Positions 2,836-36,555 of a stretch of DNA of 38,662 nt are shown here, one piece after another. The stretch is from NCBI GenBank assembly GCA_017430145.1, contig JAFRNP010000011.1, positions 1 to 38,662 of the forward strand, in the 5' to 3' direction. Positions within the stretch are counted from its first letter, which is position 1. Each line of letters begins with the position of its first letter. A model generated the notes under the pieces. The model had not been told where the DNA came from. It saw only the letters and a program-made list of their open reading frames with translations, and did not search any database. The stretch is from Clostridia bacterium. Its GTDB lineage: Bacteria > Bacillota > Clostridia > Oscillospirales > Acutalibacteraceae. A program made the translations under genes and the position numbers.

Positions 2836-4017
2836 ATGGAAAAGAATTCTTTTGAAAAAACGACTGCCTCCGGCAGGAAAAAAAAGACGGTGATCATCCT
2901 TTCCGTGTGTATCGCCGCCGGGATCCTTGTGACGTCCGCGGGCATTTCGCTGCTGGCAGGTTTTCTGTACAGAATGATCTCAACAGATAAGCCCGGAAGC
3001 GCGCAGACGTCGGTGATCCCCGAAACGCCGACTGCGTTCGAAGCGCCGCCGACGACCGAAGCGCCGCCGACCGAAGCCCCGGGGACGACCGAAGCCCCGG
3101 CAATGACCGAAGCGCCGGCGACCACAGAACCGCCGGCGGAAAACAGTACAGGAGGGCCCTTCCCTCTTGGCATGTCCTCCTGCAACAAGTATATGGGCGA
3201 GGCGTTTTTTGCCTCGCTTGCGAAAAACGGCATCCCTTACGTGGAGATCAGCCCCGGGAAGACGCAGTATTACTCGATCGATTTCACAGGGCTAAGCGTG
3301 CTTGCCGATAAATACGGCGTAACGCTCTGGTCCATCCATCTGCCGTACAGCCCGGTTTCACAGGTGGATATTTCCTCTACAGACGAAGTCAAGCGGCAGA
3401 TGAGCGTCAGCTTTGACGCGGAGATCATCCGCAAGGCGGCCGCCGTGGGGATCCGCGTCATGGTGGTCCATCCGTGCGGGGAAAAGGTCACGGAGGAAGA
3501 GCGTCCCGCCCGCATGGAAGCCGCAAAAAAAAGCCTTGCGTATCTTGCCGAAACGGCGGCGCAATACAACGCGGTGATCGCCGTCGAAAACATGCCGTAT
3601 TCCACGTATCTCGGCTGCAATTCGGAGGATCTTTTGCAGCTTCTGGAAGCGGACAGCCGCCTTTTTATCTGCTACGACACCAACCACCTTCTGCAGGAAG
3701 ACCCCATCCACTTTCTGGAAGCCGTCGGAAACAAGATCGTTACGCTGCACGTTTCCGACTGCAACGGCAAATACGACAACCACTGGCTCCCCGGGGAGGG
3801 CGTCATCGATTGGTACGCCTTGTACGCGGCGCTGCAGAGAACCGGCTACAGAGGGCCGTGGCTGTATGAAGTCAGCTACGAGCCAACGGAATACCGGCCG
3901 CGGATCCGGGCGCTGACTGCTGAAGATTTTGCGCAGAACGCCCGTGAGATCTACGAGGGCCTGCCTTTGACAGTATTGCCGCTGGAAGAAAAAGAAGAAG
4001 AAACGACAACGCAATAA
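2836..4017 (+). CDS. Membrane-anchored xylose-isomerase-like TIM-barrel protein
   Basis: 393 residues. After a Lys-rich start, one hydrophobic helix (about residues 20-45) is followed by a Thr/Glu/Ala/Pro linker with repeated T-E-A-P units (about 55-105). A complete copy of the TIM barrel of the preceding gene follows (about 108-380), with the same metal-site motifs: V-E-I-S-P, V-E-N-M-P, C-Y-D-T-N-H, L-H-V-S-D, H-W-L-P-G-E-G. The positive-inside rule puts the barrel outside the cell, which is unusual for this normally cytoplasmic fold. The C-terminus is short, charged and Glu/Thr-rich. No clear ribosome site precedes the ATG, so translation may depend on coupling to the gene upstream. It probably arose by tandem duplication plus gain of an anchor and linker. 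Confidence 0.8.
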   Translation: MEKNSFEKTTASGRKKKTVIILSVCIAAGILVTSAGISLLAGFLYRMISTDKPGSAQTSVIPETPTAFEAPPTTEAPPTEAPGTTEAPAMTEAPATTEPPAENSTGGPFPLGMSSCNKYMGEAFFASLAKNGIPYVEISPGKTQYYSIDFTGLSVLADKYGVTLWSIHLPYSPVSQVDISSTDEVKRQMSVSFDAEIIRKAAAVGIRVMVVHPCGEKVTEEERPARMEAAKKSLAYLAETAAQYNAVIAVENMPYSTYLGCNSEDLLQLLEADSRLFICYDTNHLLQEDPIHFLEAVGNKIVTLHVSDCNGKYDNHWLPGEGVIDWYALYAALQRTGYRGPWLYEVSYEPTEYRPRIRALTAEDFAQNAREIYEGLPLTVLPLEEKEEETTTQ

Positions 4018-4062
4018 GCAAAGAAAGGAACGCGGCTGCCGCCGGCAGCGCGGAAAGAAAAC

Positions 4063-5643
4063 ATGGTCTGCCCATATTGCAATCAGGAATCCACCAACAC
4101 GATCCGGTTCTGCCCGCACTGCGGCAGAGACGTTACCGTGGCGCCGCCCGGTCCGCCGCCGGCGCCCCCGAGGCCGGCGACCCCCGGCGTGCCCGTGGGA
4201 GCGGTCAAAAAATCGAATACCGGCGTCATTGCGATCGCCGTGATCGGCGCTCTGCTTTTAATCGGCGTGATCGTGCTGATCGTTATACTGCTTGCGTCCC
4301 GCGGCAGCGACGGGGGCTCACAGCCCGTCGGCGGGAACGTCTCCGTTGACGCCGGGGACAAGACCCGGACGCAGCTCCGGTTCGTTACCAGCGACGTGTC
4401 GGATTACCCCACCGTACGTCTCTATTTCAGCGTGGAGGACGACAACGGCGACCCGGTCCTGCTGACCTCCCCCACTGCCGCAATCAAGGAACAGATCAGC
4501 GGCGGGGGCGAGGTGGAACGCACCATCCGCACCGTTGAACAGCTCGATAAAAACCAGGGCCTCGGCATCGATATCCTGATCGACAAATCGGGCAGCATGG
4601 AAACGGACTTCCCGCAGATGCAAAGCATTCTGAGGACCTTTATCAACAGCCTTGACTACGCCTCCGGCGACAAGGCGGAGCTGATCGCCTTTGACGACCT
4701 GATCATGTATATGTGCACGTATACGGACGATCCCTCCCTGCTGCAGGGCGGTATCTCCAATATGACGCCGGACGGCGCTACGGCGCTGTACGACGCGCTG
4801 TACATGGGGATCAACAACGCGGGCAGCCGCCCGGGCGCAAACTGTGTGATCGCCTTTACCGACGGCGAAGACAACGAGAGCATCCACACCTACAGCGAAG
4901 TGATCGCCCTTGCGCAGAACAAGGACGTGCCGGTATACCTGATCGGCACCGACGATGCGGACGCGGGCGTCCTTGAAAGCATTGCGACCGGTACCGGCGG
5001 CAAATACTGGAACGTCGGCGCCATTTCGGACGTCAGCGACATACTGTCCGGGATCTATACGATCCAGAAGGATATGTACTGCATCGAATACGATTCCGAC
5101 CCGGGGGCGGACCCCTATGCAGCCCGAAACGTATCCTGCACCATTACGGACGACTTCTATTTCGGCGATCTGACAGGCGTGCCTTTTACGGCAGTCCCCG
5201 TATTTACCGTACAGCCCCACACCGCCAGATATGAGATCATTGCCGCCGACATCAGCTGGACCGAGGCCAGCGACCTGTGCATCTCCCGCGGCGGACATCT
5301 GGCGACCATCACTTCCCAGGCGGAAATGGAACAGGTCTCCGCGCTGGCGGAGAATTCGGGGCTCAAATACCTGTGGATCGGCGGCTATACCTCCATCCGG
5401 AACAACGCGGCCTACGGGCACTGGATCACGGGCGAAGACTTCAGCTACAGCGCCTGGTATCCGGGAGAGCCCTCCCGCAACGACCGGGACGGCACGCCCG
5501 AGGCCTACCTGATGCTTTGGCGGGTCGAGGGGGTCTGGTCGTGGAACGACCAGCGCAACGACGTGGATACGGCGGCGCGCACGGATACGAGGCTGAAATA
5601 TTTTATCGGAAAAATGGGGTACGTCTGTGAATATGAAGACTGA
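4063..5643 (+). CDS. Zinc-ribbon, TM, von Willebrand A and C-type-lectin domain protein
   Basis: 526 residues in four parts. (1) An N-terminal zinc ribbon with C3-x2-C6 and C-x2-C near 17-20. (2) A Pro-rich stretch and one TM helix near 50-78. (3) A vWA domain (about 95-345) with an intact MIDAS D174-x-S176-x-S178, a T-P-D-G-A-T segment and an F-T-D-G-E-D segment supplying the later metal-site residues. (4) A C-terminal C-type-lectin-like fold (about 385-526) with W-T-E-A, G-G-H-L-A-T-I-T, L-W-I-G-G, a W-x-W-N-D-Q segment and a terminal Y-V-C-E-Y. The zinc ribbon would be cytoplasmic and the adhesive domains outside. It likely binds ligands or carbohydrate at the surface. It overlaps the next gene by 17 nt. 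Confidence 0.8.
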   Translation: MVCPYCNQESTNTIRFCPHCGRDVTVAPPGPPPAPPRPATPGVPVGAVKKSNTGVIAIAVIGALLLIGVIVLIVILLASRGSDGGSQPVGGNVSVDAGDKTRTQLRFVTSDVSDYPTVRLYFSVEDDNGDPVLLTSPTAAIKEQISGGGEVERTIRTVEQLDKNQGLGIDILIDKSGSMETDFPQMQSILRTFINSLDYASGDKAELIAFDDLIMYMCTYTDDPSLLQGGISNMTPDGATALYDALYMGINNAGSRPGANCVIAFTDGEDNESIHTYSEVIALAQNKDVPVYLIGTDDADAGVLESIATGTGGKYWNVGAISDVSDILSGIYTIQKDMYCIEYDSDPGADPYAARNVSCTITDDFYFGDLTGVPFTAVPVFTVQPHTARYEIIAADISWTEASDLCISRGGHLATITSQAEMEQVSALAENSGLKYLWIGGYTSIRNNAAYGHWITGEDFSYSAWYPGEPSRNDRDGTPEAYLMLWRVEGVWSWNDQRNDVDTAARTDTRLKYFIGKMGYVCEYED

Positions 5644-24770: not shown

Positions 24771-24908
24771 ATGGAATTTTTACAGGGCTTTATTGATTTC
24801 ATCCTTTCGTTCGTCAAATATATCCAGGAACTGGTCAAATACATCCGTAAAAAGAACGACGGCGACGATTCCGCCACCCAGCCCGCATTCCCGTCCATCG
24901 GCGGTTAA
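24771..24908 (+). CDS. 45-residue amphipathic peptide, unknown function
   Basis: AAAAGGAG lies 9 nt before the ATG; the gene has its own promoter and terminator, so it is a full cistron. Residues 1-26 form a likely amphipathic or membrane-seeking helix rich in Phe, Ile, Leu, Val and Tyr with few charges (M-E-F-L-Q-G-F-I-D-F-I-L then S-F-V-K-Y-I-Q-E-L-V-K-Y-I). Next come a basic and acidic stretch (R-K-K-N-D-G-D-D) and a Pro/Gly tail. It has no cysteines and no leader cleavage motif. Possible roles: phenol-soluble-modulin-like peptide, type I toxin, or small membrane regulator. No antisense RNA promoter was identified. No family recognised. Confidence 0.7.
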   Translation: MEFLQGFIDFILSFVKYIQELVKYIRKKNDGDDSATQPAFPSIGG

Positions 24909-29880: not shown

Positions 29881-30795
29881 ATGGCGAAAAGAGAACGCAA
29901 CGTGCTGCGGTTCAACATCCAGCGCAAAATCGTGGCGAATATGACCACCGCAAGCTGGCGGCATATCCCGCACGTCAGTTTCATCTACGATGCGGACGTG
30001 ACCGACTTTCTGGCGGCCTACAACAAGTTCAACGAGGAGACCCCCTATTATATCACCTTCAACACCGTCATGCTCAAGGCGCTTTCCGAAGGCATCAAGG
30101 CGGCGCCGCGCATCAACGCGCATATGCATTTTGAGCCGCGGCTCGTGCGCGGCAAGCTGACGTTTTTTGACAACATCGATATCTCCGTGCCCTGGATGCT
30201 GCCCGACGGCAATATGATGACCATCACCATGAAGGACATGGGCAACAAGACGCTCAAAGAAATGAGCGAGTATACGGTCGATATCAACCGCCGCTTAAAA
30301 AACACGAACCTGACCGAGGCGCTGTATTCCGTTTCCATCAACGACACGATCGAAACGCTCAAATCCGGGCATATCATGCGGGCGCTCTTACGGCTTTACG
30401 GCTCCAAAACCAACCCCCGCCACAAGGTCACGCCCTTAAAGGGGCGCGAAAAGGAGGCGTACGAAAGCATCCCCGAAACCGACCGCATCACCATTGACGA
30501 CTTAAAGCAGGGCACCATCACCATCTCGAACATCGGCGCCGCCGCCAAGGGGATCAACGGGGCGCTGGATATGCTGATGATCATCCCGCCGCAGATCTGC
30601 GCCATCGGCATCAGCTCCATGCAGCGCCGACCCACCGTCGTCACAGACGAGGACGGCAATGAAAAGATCGAGATCCGCACGATCCTGCCCATGTGCATCT
30701 GCTTTGACCACCGGGCGCTGGATTTCGGCGAGGTCAGCCCCTTTATCCGCAAGATGGAGGAGATCTTCAAAAATCCCTGGTCCGTTATGAACTGA
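29881..30795 (+). CDS. Stand-alone 2-oxo acid dehydrogenase E2-type acyltransferase domain
   Basis: 304 residues covering only the catalytic domain of E2 enzymes; the lipoyl and E1/E3-binding domains are absent and no E1 or E3 gene is near. Motifs: R-K-I-V-A-N-M at the start, I-T-F-N-T-V-M-L-K-A, G-T-I-T-I-S-N-I-G-A-A near the end, and the C-terminal F-D-H-R-A-L-D-F-G. The catalytic His and Asp of H-x3-D are present, but the Gly after Asp is Phe. It probably transfers acyl groups from CoA to an acceptor other than a lipoyl domain in cis. The radical SAM gene follows after 120 nt. Confidence 0.8.
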   Translation: MAKRERNVLRFNIQRKIVANMTTASWRHIPHVSFIYDADVTDFLAAYNKFNEETPYYITFNTVMLKALSEGIKAAPRINAHMHFEPRLVRGKLTFFDNIDISVPWMLPDGNMMTITMKDMGNKTLKEMSEYTVDINRRLKNTNLTEALYSVSINDTIETLKSGHIMRALLRLYGSKTNPRHKVTPLKGREKEAYESIPETDRITIDDLKQGTITISNIGAAAKGINGALDMLMIIPPQICAIGISSMQRRPTVVTDEDGNEKIEIRTILPMCICFDHRALDFGEVSPFIRKMEEIFKNPWSVMN

Positions 30796-30915: not shown

Positions 30916-32514
30916 ATGGAAACTGAAAAAACCGGATCCTACCCGCTGTACACGCTGCTGATCGAAGTCACGCAAAAGTGCAACGCCGCCTGCGACCAGT
31001 GCGGCAGCCGTTGCGATATCCGCTCGGAGGAACTGCTTTCCAAAGAGCAGATCCTTGCGGCGCTCAGGGATATCAAAGAAAACATCGGCACCTACACCAT
31101 GCTCAACATCACGGGCGGGGAGCCGCTTTTGCGCCGCGACCTGTTTGAGATGATGCGGGAAGCCTCCGATATGGGCTTTGAGTGGGGAATGGTGACGAAC
31201 GGCTCGCTGATCACCGACGACGTGATCGAAAGCATGCGCAGCGCCGGCATGAAGACCGCGACCGTGAGCCTGGACGGACTGCAGGAGACCCACGATTCCC
31301 TGCGCCACCTGCCCGGAAGCTGGAAGCATATCCTCGAAGCCCTTAAAAAACTGAAAAAGGCGGCGTTTCTCGACCACCTGCAAGTCACCTTCACGGCAAA
31401 CCGGCGCAACGTATACGAATTTGAGGCGCTGTACCGGATCCTCGGCCCCATCGGGCTCGATTCGATCCGCGTCAGCTTCATGGACCCCATCGGGCGCGCG
31501 CTGGACAACGCCGACCTGCTTCTGACAAGAGAGGAGATCCTGTATTTTACGGGGGTCGTGAACGCCTGCAACCGCAGGGAACACGGCACAAAGGTCATCT
31601 GGGGCTGCCCGCATTACCTCGGCACGCTGCTGGAAAACCGCCGGTTTTCTTGCTTTGCGGGCAAATATACCGCGTCCATCCTCGTAAACGGCGATATCTT
31701 CGTCTGCCCGAACGTGGAAAGACGCCCGGAATTCGTGCAGGGAAACATTCTGAACGACAGCTTCAGCGAGGTCTGGAAAAACGGCTTCGGCGTTTTCCGT
31801 CAAAGAAAGCTGCCGGAGAAATGCGCGGGATGCAAATATGAAAAGCAGTGCGCCGGCGACTCGGTGCATACCATGGATTTTGAAAAGAACGAGCCGAAGT
31901 TCTGTTTTCTCGATCATATGGAAGCGCCCTCCCCGGCGGCATATAAAGAAAACCTGTTCCGGCAATACCCCGGTCTCAGCTTTTACGAGATCTCCGCAGA
32001 AGAGAACGACGCCGTCGAGGTGCTGATCGAGCCGGAGGCGTGGCAGGATATCGCCAGGTATTTCCATATCGGGAAAAAGCATCCCCAGTCCATGTATGAG
32101 CAGCAGATGGCGCTGATCGGCTTTTATATCGGGAACACCGCGGCAATCCGGTACGTCGTCCCCTGCGACGGGGCGCTCAGGGCGGAGGACAACGCGGTCT
32201 TTACCGGCCGGATCACGAAAAAAGCAGAAAAGGAACTGCAGATCATCAACGCCAATTATTATAAAAGTGACGACCGTTCCCTTTGCGGCAGCGAATTAAG
32301 CGCATCCGAACCCATGCGGTTTCTGGGCTTCATCCACAGCCACCCCACCCAAAGCGAGCTGCAGTATTCCACGGGCGACGAGGCGATCCATGAACGGATG
32401 CTGAAAAAATACGGCGCGTATATCGGCATTCTCGTCAACCCCGCCGAAGGCGCCGTCGGCGCATATTCCGGGAAGGATCTGCGGCAGGCAAAACTGATCG
32501 TCCCGGATATGTAA
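30916..32514 (+). CDS. Radical SAM-SPASM protein fused to a C-terminal JAMM/Mov34-like domain
   Basis: 532 residues. Radical SAM part: C22-x3-C26-x2-C29 (the [4Fe-4S]/SAM cluster), then N-I-T-G-G-E-P-L-L as the SAM-binding GGEP motif. A SPASM-type region (about 240-335) has C residues in F-S-C-F-A-G, I-F-V-C-P-N and E-K-C-A-G-C-K-Y-E-K-Q-C, plus C-F-L-D, enough for auxiliary Fe-S clusters. C-terminal domain (about 370-532): H474-S-H476-P then S485-T-G-D488, the zinc-binding half of the JAMM motif of JAB/Mov34 isopeptidases. The usual upstream Glu is not in its expected place (A399-L-I-G by my alignment; E395 is near). SPASM enzymes often modify peptides and JAMM domains cleave them, so a maturase-peptidase is plausible; no precursor peptide was found nearby. 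Confidence 0.82.
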   Translation: METEKTGSYPLYTLLIEVTQKCNAACDQCGSRCDIRSEELLSKEQILAALRDIKENIGTYTMLNITGGEPLLRRDLFEMMREASDMGFEWGMVTNGSLITDDVIESMRSAGMKTATVSLDGLQETHDSLRHLPGSWKHILEALKKLKKAAFLDHLQVTFTANRRNVYEFEALYRILGPIGLDSIRVSFMDPIGRALDNADLLLTREEILYFTGVVNACNRREHGTKVIWGCPHYLGTLLENRRFSCFAGKYTASILVNGDIFVCPNVERRPEFVQGNILNDSFSEVWKNGFGVFRQRKLPEKCAGCKYEKQCAGDSVHTMDFEKNEPKFCFLDHMEAPSPAAYKENLFRQYPGLSFYEISAEENDAVEVLIEPEAWQDIARYFHIGKKHPQSMYEQQMALIGFYIGNTAAIRYVVPCDGALRAEDNAVFTGRITKKAEKELQIINANYYKSDDRSLCGSELSASEPMRFLGFIHSHPTQSELQYSTGDEAIHERMLKKYGAYIGILVNPAEGAVGAYSGKDLRQAKLIVPDM

Positions 32515-34575: not shown

Positions 34576-36555
34576 ATGGATAAAATCCTGAACGCCATCC
34601 GCGTCTCCGTCCCGAACTGGCTGGATGAGGACGCGTTTTCAAAACTTCTTGCGTTTTTGGGCGAATACCGGGACATGGTCCAGCAGGTCGCCTTTTTCTC
34701 CTCCGATTTCCATCCCCCGCAGCCGCTGGAAACAGCCCGGCGGCACGCCGACGTGCTGAAGGACCGGATCGCCCGGGTAAAAGCGGCGGGGTTTTCGTGC
34801 GGGATCAATATCCTTTCGACGATCGGGCACCATCCGGAGCGAACGGACGAGATGCTGCAGGGCGACTGGCGGCGGATGACCGGCATTGACGGCGACGTGT
34901 GCGCGGGCTCCTTCTGTCCCGGCGACGTTCGGTACATCGAAGAATACGTAAAGCCGCTGTACCGGATCTACTGTGAAGCCGCGCCTGATTTTATCTGGGT
35001 GGACGACGACGTGCGGTACGGGCACATCCCCGTCGGCAACGGCTGCTTCTGCGACGGCTGCATAAACGCCTTTAACCTTCGCTGCGGCTGCTGCTTTACC
35101 CGTGAGACGCTCAAAGCCGCCCTAACGGCTCCCGGAAACACGGCGCTGAAAAAGCAGTGGCTGACTTCACAAAGCGACAAGCTCGCTTCCCTTCTTGCGG
35201 CCATCCGTGAGATCGTTGCGGCATACGGCCCAAGTATCACGCTGGGCTTTATGACCGGAGAGCGGTATTTTGAGGGCTACGATTTTGAAAAGTGGGCCCG
35301 CTCTCTTTCCGGCGACGGACAAAAAGAGATATTCTGGCGGCCGGGCGGCGGCGCGTACACCGACCGCCCCCTGGATGGCCTGCTGGAAAAGGCGCGGCAG
35401 ATCGGCAGGCAGTGCGCACGGCTGCCGGACTACGTGACGTCCGTCCAGTCTGAGATCGAAAATTTCCCCTACCGGGTCCTGCAGAAAAGCCCCCGGGCGA
35501 CGGCGCTGGAGGTGCTGCTGCACACCGCCGCCGGGTGCACCGGCGCCGCGCTCAACGTCCTGCCCGACGCCCCGCGCGGAGAAGAGATCGAAGTCATGCG
35601 CCCCCACTTTGAAGCGCTCAGAAGCATCGTCCCCTTTGAGAGGCTCCTGTCAGAGACCCTCTCCCGGGCGCCGACGGCGGGCATATACGACGGGTGGCAT
35701 ATCCACGGGCAGGCGGCGCTGGACGGCGACTTTCTGACCGGCAGCGGCGGGCGGTTCCCGGCGGCAGCCGAGGAGCTATGGTCGCTGGGGCTGCCGGTCT
35801 GCCACGATCCTGAACATGCCGCGGCATTCGTCCTTACGGGAAAATCGCCGCTCGCCTTTTCGGACGAAGAGCGCCGCCATATGCTGTCATCCGGCGTTTT
35901 TCTGGACGCCGAAGCGCTTGATACGCTCAACGCCCTCGGGTATTCGGAACTCACGGGGTTCCTCTCCGGCCCCGCTTTGCCGGAAGACAGCGTGGAGGTC
36001 TGCGCGCAGCATCCGCTTAACGACGGCTTTGCCGGCAAAACGCGGCTGTGCCCGCAGGTATTCATGCACGGGACATCCCGCGCGCTGATCCCCCGCCCCG
36101 GCGCCGAAACCCTCTGTTTCCCGGAGGACCATCACGGCAAAACGAAAGCCGCTTGTTCCATGGGGCTGTATCAAAACCGCCTCGGCGGACGGGTGTGCGC
36201 CGCCGCCCACTACGCGCTGACGGGCCTCGCGGACACCCATAAATCTTTGCAGATAAAACGGGTATTCCGCTTCCTTTCCGGCGATACGCTGCCGTTCCTC
36301 CCGGTCGGCTGCACCCGCCTGCAGGCGGTCGCACGTCGCACCGCCCGCGGGGACGCCACGGTGATATTTAATCCCAACCTCGATACGCTTTATAATACGG
36401 AGATCCTTGTCGGCGGCAGCCCCGACACGCTTGTCTTTACGTCGGAGACCGGCTTTACAGCAACTCTTTCTCCCACGCGCCGGGACGGGAACATGACGGC
36501 GTTTCTTTTGCCGGAACTTGCGCCGTTTTCGGTTGCGCTTATTAAAAGTGAATGA
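34576..36555 (+). CDS. Large putative carbohydrate-active protein (TIM-barrel glycosidase-like), unassigned
   Basis: 659 residues with GGAGG 8 nt before the ATG. No family named with confidence. Residues about 1-330 have the strand/helix rhythm of a TIM barrel: V-Q-Q-V-A-F-F-S-S-D, F-S-C-G-I-N-I-L-S-T-I-G-H-H, P-D-F-I-W-V-D-D-D-V-R-Y, a Cys-rich segment N-G-C-F-C-D-G-C with further C-G-C-C, then T-L-G-F-M-T-G-E-R-Y and S-V-Q-S-E-I-E-N-F-P. The W-V-D-D-D and Q-S-E-I-E segments are candidate catalytic acids. The middle (about 370-500) resembles the amidotransferase-like domain that follows the barrel in GH42-type enzymes. The end is beta-rich. Context (GH36, propeller glycosidase) supports a sugar role. 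Confidence 0.6.
   Translation: MDKILNAIRVSVPNWLDEDAFSKLLAFLGEYRDMVQQVAFFSSDFHPPQPLETARRHADVLKDRIARVKAAGFSCGINILSTIGHHPERTDEMLQGDWRRMTGIDGDVCAGSFCPGDVRYIEEYVKPLYRIYCEAAPDFIWVDDDVRYGHIPVGNGCFCDGCINAFNLRCGCCFTRETLKAALTAPGNTALKKQWLTSQSDKLASLLAAIREIVAAYGPSITLGFMTGERYFEGYDFEKWARSLSGDGQKEIFWRPGGGAYTDRPLDGLLEKARQIGRQCARLPDYVTSVQSEIENFPYRVLQKSPRATALEVLLHTAAGCTGAALNVLPDAPRGEEIEVMRPHFEALRSIVPFERLLSETLSRAPTAGIYDGWHIHGQAALDGDFLTGSGGRFPAAAEELWSLGLPVCHDPEHAAAFVLTGKSPLAFSDEERRHMLSSGVFLDAEALDTLNALGYSELTGFLSGPALPEDSVEVCAQHPLNDGFAGKTRLCPQVFMHGTSRALIPRPGAETLCFPEDHHGKTKAACSMGLYQNRLGGRVCAAAHYALTGLADTHKSLQIKRVFRFLSGDTLPFLPVGCTRLQAVARRTARGDATVIFNPNLDTLYNTEILVGGSPDTLVFTSETGFTATLSPTRRDGNMTAFLLPELAPFSVALIKSE

Follow-up and report, generated by a model that had tools for sequence, protein, structure and literature searches.

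The stretch analysed here (38,662 nucleotides; hereafter the window) is contig JAFRNP010000011.1 of the Clostridia bacterium assembly GCA_017430145.1, from the family Acutalibacteraceae. It encodes a protein in which a radical S-adenosylmethionine (SAM) enzyme with a SPASM domain is joined in one chain to a deubiquitinase-type JAMM metallopeptidase domain. The features of this fusion gene are listed below; residue conservation was read from 46 aligned rows, which come from 44 public contigs, the window, and G295, a genome of the same order; two of these rows are cut before C22.

30916..32514, + strand: radical SAM/SPASM-JAMM fusion gene, a single open reading frame of 532 amino acids (aa)
30961..31374, + strand: radical SAM core domain, residues 16-153 (PF04055, E 2.6e-23; SuiB/SkfB/PqqE fold)
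30979..31002, + strand: C22-x3-C26-x2-C29, which binds the radical SAM [4Fe-4S] cluster, with GSRC behind it; invariant in 44/44 rows reaching the motif
31651..31836, + strand: SPASM auxiliary-cluster domain, residues 246-307 (PF13186, E 1.1e-9); Cys invariant where covered
32011..32511, + strand: JAMM/MPN+ metallopeptidase domain, residues 366-532
32098..32100, + strand: E395, the JAMM Glu; 46/46 rows
32335..32379, + strand: H474-S-H476-P-x7-S485-x2-D488, the JAMM zinc motif; H, H, P, S and D in 46/46 rows, S475 being Ser in 45 and Thr in 1

Both the Radical_SAM and SPASM matches lie above their Pfam cut-offs, placing the protein in both families. The chain also carries a GGEP motif (residues 67-70) and SPASM cysteines at C231, C246, C264, C303, C306, C312, and C330, which are invariant in all alignment rows covering them. 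The C-terminal half was harder to assign. Searching with the C-terminal 177 residues as a single sequence returned no PDB chain at E ≤10. Of the 19 rows listed for a profile of nine fusions, 18 were JAMM/MPN proteins (AMSH, Prp8, BRCC36, Rpn11), all of them weak matches with E 0.017 at best; an unrelated engineered protein ranked first (E 0.011). At E ≤10, all nine fusion members matched Pfam JAB (PF01398; best E 6.8e-5) and seven matched Prok-JAB (PF14464; best E 0.0073); the window domain alone falls below both cut-offs (PF01398, E 0.041, 14.1 versus 22.5 bits; PF14464, 14.1 versus 25 bits). Beyond these weak profile and Pfam scores, it was fold comparison that settled the assignment: in the predicted model of the whole protein, the C-terminal domain has an MPN fold near those of BRCC36 and Rpn11.

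Together, the motifs, the Pfam matches, and the modeled fold bear out the one-chain architecture proposed in a preliminary description of this locus. That description also held the JAMM Glu to be shifted or missing and the domain to be perhaps capable only of binding zinc; the first point is wrong, and the second is not supported. Along with the HSHP, Ser, and Asp residues, E395 (in the context YEQQMALIGF) is kept in every homolog, so that E395, G402, H474, H476, P477, S485, and D488 are invariant in 46/46 rows, and the fold matches that of active JAMM deubiquitinases. The nearby A399 is Ala in 33 rows, Gly in 12, and Cys in 1. Because the Glu stands at the position expected of a JAMM enzyme, the domain is predicted from its sequence to be one that should be active.

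The fusion recurs among related bacteria. A full copy is present in 8 of the 26 genomes of the window's genus, its own included. An order-level sample of 394 genomes contained the window's own gene, a second full fusion (G295), and a weak match interrupted by stops, while a family-level sample of 300 genomes gave seven matches, namely the own gene, five strong, and one weak. Scanning public contigs yielded 44 fusion loci, all named as Clostridia or families or genera therein and many, by title, from rumen assemblies; the radical SAM part was seen in 42 of these, and the remaining two contigs end inside the gene. Given the presence of the fusion in 8 of 26 genus genomes and in 44 public contigs, it is not a product of chance.

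Beside the fusions lies a recurrent companion. A neighboring gene whose product bears a YG[C/A]P tail was found in 43 of the 44 fusion loci, and in the sole exception (L111) the contig begins inside the fusion gene. Open reading frames of ≤260 aa within 1.5 kb held 69 such motifs, in one to about six tail genes per locus, against a background of 5 motifs recovered by the same filter in about 355 kb farther from the fusions. At their C-terminus these products carry X-Y-G-[C/A]-P and, behind it, a conserved tail; in the close group, this tail reads NSKKAxKLQLxKKLYR. After Gly, 66 motifs have Cys, 3 have Ala, and none has Pro. Within the genus, YGCPNS tails occur in 7 of 8 fusion genomes versus 0 of 18 others. 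The earlier suggestion of a maturase for a ribosomally synthesized and post-translationally modified peptide (RiPP), acting on a neighboring small open reading frame, is well supported by this neighborhood survey (43 of 44 relatives); the window locus itself lacks the small frame. That suggestion did not anticipate a likely substrate in the form of a C-terminal tail on very different carriers, nor the ties of the radical SAM half to TIGR04133 enzymes and to the X-Y-G motif of spliceases. Among 20 loci with clustered neighbors, no third gene recurred through all groups.

The proteins that carry the tail are diverse. They include amphipathic peptides some 45-100 aa long; proteins resembling lipoproteins by eye, in most of loci L097-L106; a family with members of about 150 aa in L107-L110, L112, and L113; an FHA protein (PF00498, E 2e-6) at locus L038 of G295; a possible zinc-ribbon protein below the Pfam cut-off (L114); and a weakly ubiquitin-like protein at L116 (Pfam E 0.024; in the PDB, a redesigned ubiquitin ranks first at E 0.0029, other rows >0.09). 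Second, shorter members of the 150-aa family (112-114 aa) are encoded near the fusion at L110 (9748-10086) and L112 (5777-6121). Protein kinases lie near two fusions (L115, 4004-6463; L116, 9827-12507; Pkinase E 2e-35 and 8.9e-12), as does a vWA-like protein below the cut-off. The kinases, the vWA-like protein, and the FHA carrier make a link of the fusions to phospho-signaling possible. About 1.7 kb before the L109 fusion is a gene for a distant radical SAM protein (3988-5140, + strand; weak NCBIfam matches), adjoined by an 81-aa peptide with many CGG motifs; these two may form a RiPP system of their own.

In a tree of 34 radical SAM domains, 16 fusions form one clade (92/86), and the fusions, their standalone relatives, and TIGR04133 together form a well-supported one (97/96). 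The best NCBIfam model for the window protein is likewise TIGR04133 ("rSAM_w_lipo"; 223.6 bits, cut-off 425). Pairwise, its radical SAM half scores 179 bits against a TIGR04133 enzyme, 118 against a Nostoc PlpX-class enzyme, 89 against MftC, and 84 against PqqE. Enzymes of the same clade that lack a JAMM domain also keep company with the motif: an X-Y-G-x-P protein adjoins the enzyme gene in 21 of 22 loci, with 56 motifs in open reading frames of ≤300 aa within 0.9 kb. This set comprises seven longer loci (L044-L050) and 15 of 17 further ones, L142 and L144 having been dropped as copies from the window's own genome that were already included; the short stretches L012 and L013 were left out of the count. 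The seven longer loci held only 4 such motifs farther off, in about 74 kb, and the sole locus without the motif, L131, has AYGID instead. Near these standalone enzymes, 53 of 56 motifs are XYGPP, up to five in one protein, and none has Cys after YG. The exchange of Gly-Pro for Gly-Cys or Gly-Ala, seen only where the JAMM domain is present, is what cleavage between Gly and Cys would call for.

The association extends to three TIGR04133-like enzymes encoded on plasmids of Parabacteroides, Treponema, and Phocaeicola, whose lipoprotein-like neighbors carry EYGSP, CYGMP, and EYGTP; at the Phocaeicola locus (L120), where both strands were examined, the motif protein lies just downstream of the enzyme gene. 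XYGxP near such enzymes spans Bacillota, two Bacteroidota examples, and one Spirochaetota example. Another carrier type appears beside standalone TIGR04133-like enzymes at L046 (9977-10591, - strand), L049 (3077-3814, + strand), and L013: membrane-type proteins, DUF805-like by eye, with three VYGPP motifs in the C-terminal part. The L046 protein had no NCBIfam match.

The motif is shared with a known chemistry. We take the PlpX splicease class to be the nif11-class peptide radical SAM maturase 3 (NCBIfam TIGR04103). As described in PMC10533398 and PMC11002830, the proven splicease PlpXY cuts tyramine (C8H9NO, 135.0757 Da) out of X-Y-G so that a ketoamide is left behind, its natural sites being MYG and LYG; the InterPro entry for the class is IPR026482 (PMC11002830). 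The Nostoc PlpX-class enzyme (C057) adjoins a Nif11 precursor ending in LYGLPPELF. The window protein resembles this class in its radical SAM/SPASM architecture, in the X-Y-G-x-P motif that lies beside its relatives, and in pairwise score; it differs in that the PlpX class has no JAMM domain, uses Nif11- or proteusin-type precursors, and works alongside a small PlpY partner. The TIGR04133 family, with its "radical SAM-associated putative lipoprotein", is closest by score, falls in the same clade, and likewise has XYGxP in the neighboring protein, but it lacks the JAMM domain and in Clostridia its motif is mostly XYGPP, often repeated. As for the lipoprotein itself, carriers that look lipoprotein-like by eye stand beside the fusions in most of L097-L106, other carriers elsewhere, and none in the window.

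The JAMM half has its own precedents. JAMM/MPN+ deubiquitinases such as BRCC36, Rpn11, and AMSH share its fold and its E...HSHP-x7-S-x2-D motif, whereas the fusion carries a radical SAM part and is predicted to act on a short C-terminal tail rather than on ubiquitin. JAMM enzymes commonly cleave after Gly, and Mec+ is a JAMM enzyme that cleaves the Gly-Cys bond of CysO-cysteine, the kind of cut predicted for the fusion. Unlike the fusion, Mec+ is a separate enzyme of cysteine synthesis without a radical SAM part.

These observations suggest a self-contained, two-step tail-editing enzyme, a proposal on which we are evenly divided. The tail proteins are very probably the substrate of the fusion. 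In the first step, the radical SAM half would recognize the tail and act at X-Y-G as PlpX does: a tyramine unit would be lost from Tyr, and X would be joined to Gly via an α-keto-β-amino (ketoamide) residue. We consider this excision probable; the assignment of splicease-type chemistry derives mainly from the shared motif and clade. In the second step, the JAMM half would remove the follower tail, most plausibly at the Gly-Cys or Gly-Ala bond. That the JAMM half cuts the tail at all is quite likely, and on the exact position between Gly and Cys or Ala the balance is even, the alternative being cleavage at another point of the conserved tail. The product would be a carrier that ends, or nearly ends, in a reactive ketoamide, whether a membrane-bound amphipathic peptide, a lipoprotein, an FHA protein, or perhaps a ubiquitin-like protein. 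Ketoamides are a group used in protease inhibition.

Several observations pull against this proposal. The motif pattern was preset to Y, G, and a later P, leaving only X and the residue after Gly unbiased, and X is Tyr in 54 of 69 motifs near fusions, versus Met and Leu at natural PlpX sites. The Pro versus Cys/Ala contrast between standalone and fusion motifs gives a Fisher p of 4e-32, which overstates the independent events because the sequences are related; independent changes between Gly-Pro and Gly-Cys are few in number. In the Nostoc stretch, XYG is present in only one of three precursor-like genes, and the PlpX-like Nostoc row joins the tree weakly (84/56), on a long branch, next to the wider clade of fusions, standalone relatives, and TIGR04133. 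The window protein scores far below the cut-offs of both TIGR04133 and TIGR04103 (112.1 of 725 bits), and two models for heme enzymes, TIGR04545 (124.5 bits) and TIGR04055 (121.9), outscore the latter. No PlpY-like partner recurred in the 20 clustered loci, where small or unlinked partners could escape. Finally, a YGCP tail gene is absent from the window's own 3.03-Mb, 86.6% complete assembly (YGAP was not searched). Its 10 YGCP matches all lack the conserved tail, YYGCP was not found, a YGCPN search across the 26 genus genomes gave no tail gene for this genome, and a tail-peptide profile returned only two weak matches in long frames (E 0.47 and 0.97). The window's tail gene may lie outside the assembled sequence, carry another motif, or have been lost.

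At the window locus itself, a melibiase-like gene (PF02065, E 1.6e-17) starts 68 bases after the fusion. Upstream, positions 24771-24908 (+ strand) encode a 45-aa amphipathic peptide (MEFLQGFIDFILSFVKYIQELVKYIRKKND...PSIGG) preceded by a purine-rich stretch resembling a ribosome-binding site. As a candidate substrate it was rejected, having neither a YG tail nor a relative among the loci examined. Positions 29881-30795 (+ strand) encode a stand-alone 2-oxoacid dehydrogenase acyltransferase catalytic domain (304 aa; PF00198, E 3.6e-34) without a recognized lipoyl domain, and 34576-36555 (+ strand) a 659-aa protein with no Pfam match at E ≤1.

Other accounts of the tail deserve weighing against splicing followed by cleavage. 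The radical SAM half could perform different chemistry on it, such as a Cys- or Tyr-centered crosslink of the ranthipeptide or sactipeptide kind, with the JAMM half still cutting the follower. The structural matches of that half include thioether-forming and other RiPP maturases (SkfB, SuiB, 5wgg), and Cys follows YG in 66 of 69 fusion motifs. Yet Ala takes its place in the other three, the standalone motifs mostly have Pro there and never Cys, and the common element is X-Y-G-x-P, as near the PlpX-class enzyme; we regard this alternative as unlikely, if worth keeping in view.

Ubiquitin-like processing is a more improbable reading, in which the JAMM activity would be the main one, exposing a C-terminal Gly for attachment or recognition, and the radical SAM step would be a mark or regulator. 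JAMM enzymes do process ubiquitin-like precursors, and the L116 carrier weakly resembles ubiquitin. Against this, most carriers are short amphipathic or lipoprotein-like, a profile search with the 150-aa carrier family (A6, six members) gave no ubiquitin match, no E1/E2-like gene was recognized near the fusions in a Pfam scan that covered few neighbors, and the XYG motif is kept in JAMM-less sister systems. That the JAMM domain is a non-catalytic module for zinc binding or peptide docking seems very improbable: MPN- domains without activity exist and the window domain scores below the Pfam JAB cut-off, but its Glu, both His, Ser, and Asp are invariant and its fold is near BRCC36 and Rpn11.

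To our knowledge, radical SAM and JAMM classes have not been reported before in one polypeptide; should the fusion act as proposed, it would bring a JAMM peptidase into ribosomal peptide maturation for the first time and be the first known splicease to carry its own protease. A literature search pairing JAMM/Mov34 with radical SAM/SPASM found no report of such a fusion, with most subscription papers, including a 2022 splicease survey, outside its reach. The available part of a 2023 review of RiPP proteases names metalloproteases of families M1, M16, M61, M103, and M50 and contains no occurrence of "JAMM". What appears new here, judged from sequence, is the pairing of splicease-like maturation with a JAMM peptidase in the same chain, together with tails at the C-termini of a variety of carriers. 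Lipoprotein spliceases may already be covered by Scott 2022.

XYGxP serves as a sequence code for predicting substrates of TIGR04133-like enzymes, and the fusion gene alone might perhaps serve as a tool both for making a ketoamide and for exposing it at the C-terminus of a protein. We advance only tentatively, and would sooner doubt than assume, the broader idea that a bifunctional splicease-JAMM enzyme defines a form of C-terminal protein tagging, in which unrelated carriers bear a portable X-Y-G-[C/A]-P tail that the enzyme turns into a ketoamide and cleaves at Gly. If true, ordinary proteins would gain a reactive, electrophilic C-terminus through X-Y-G-[C/A]-P tagging.
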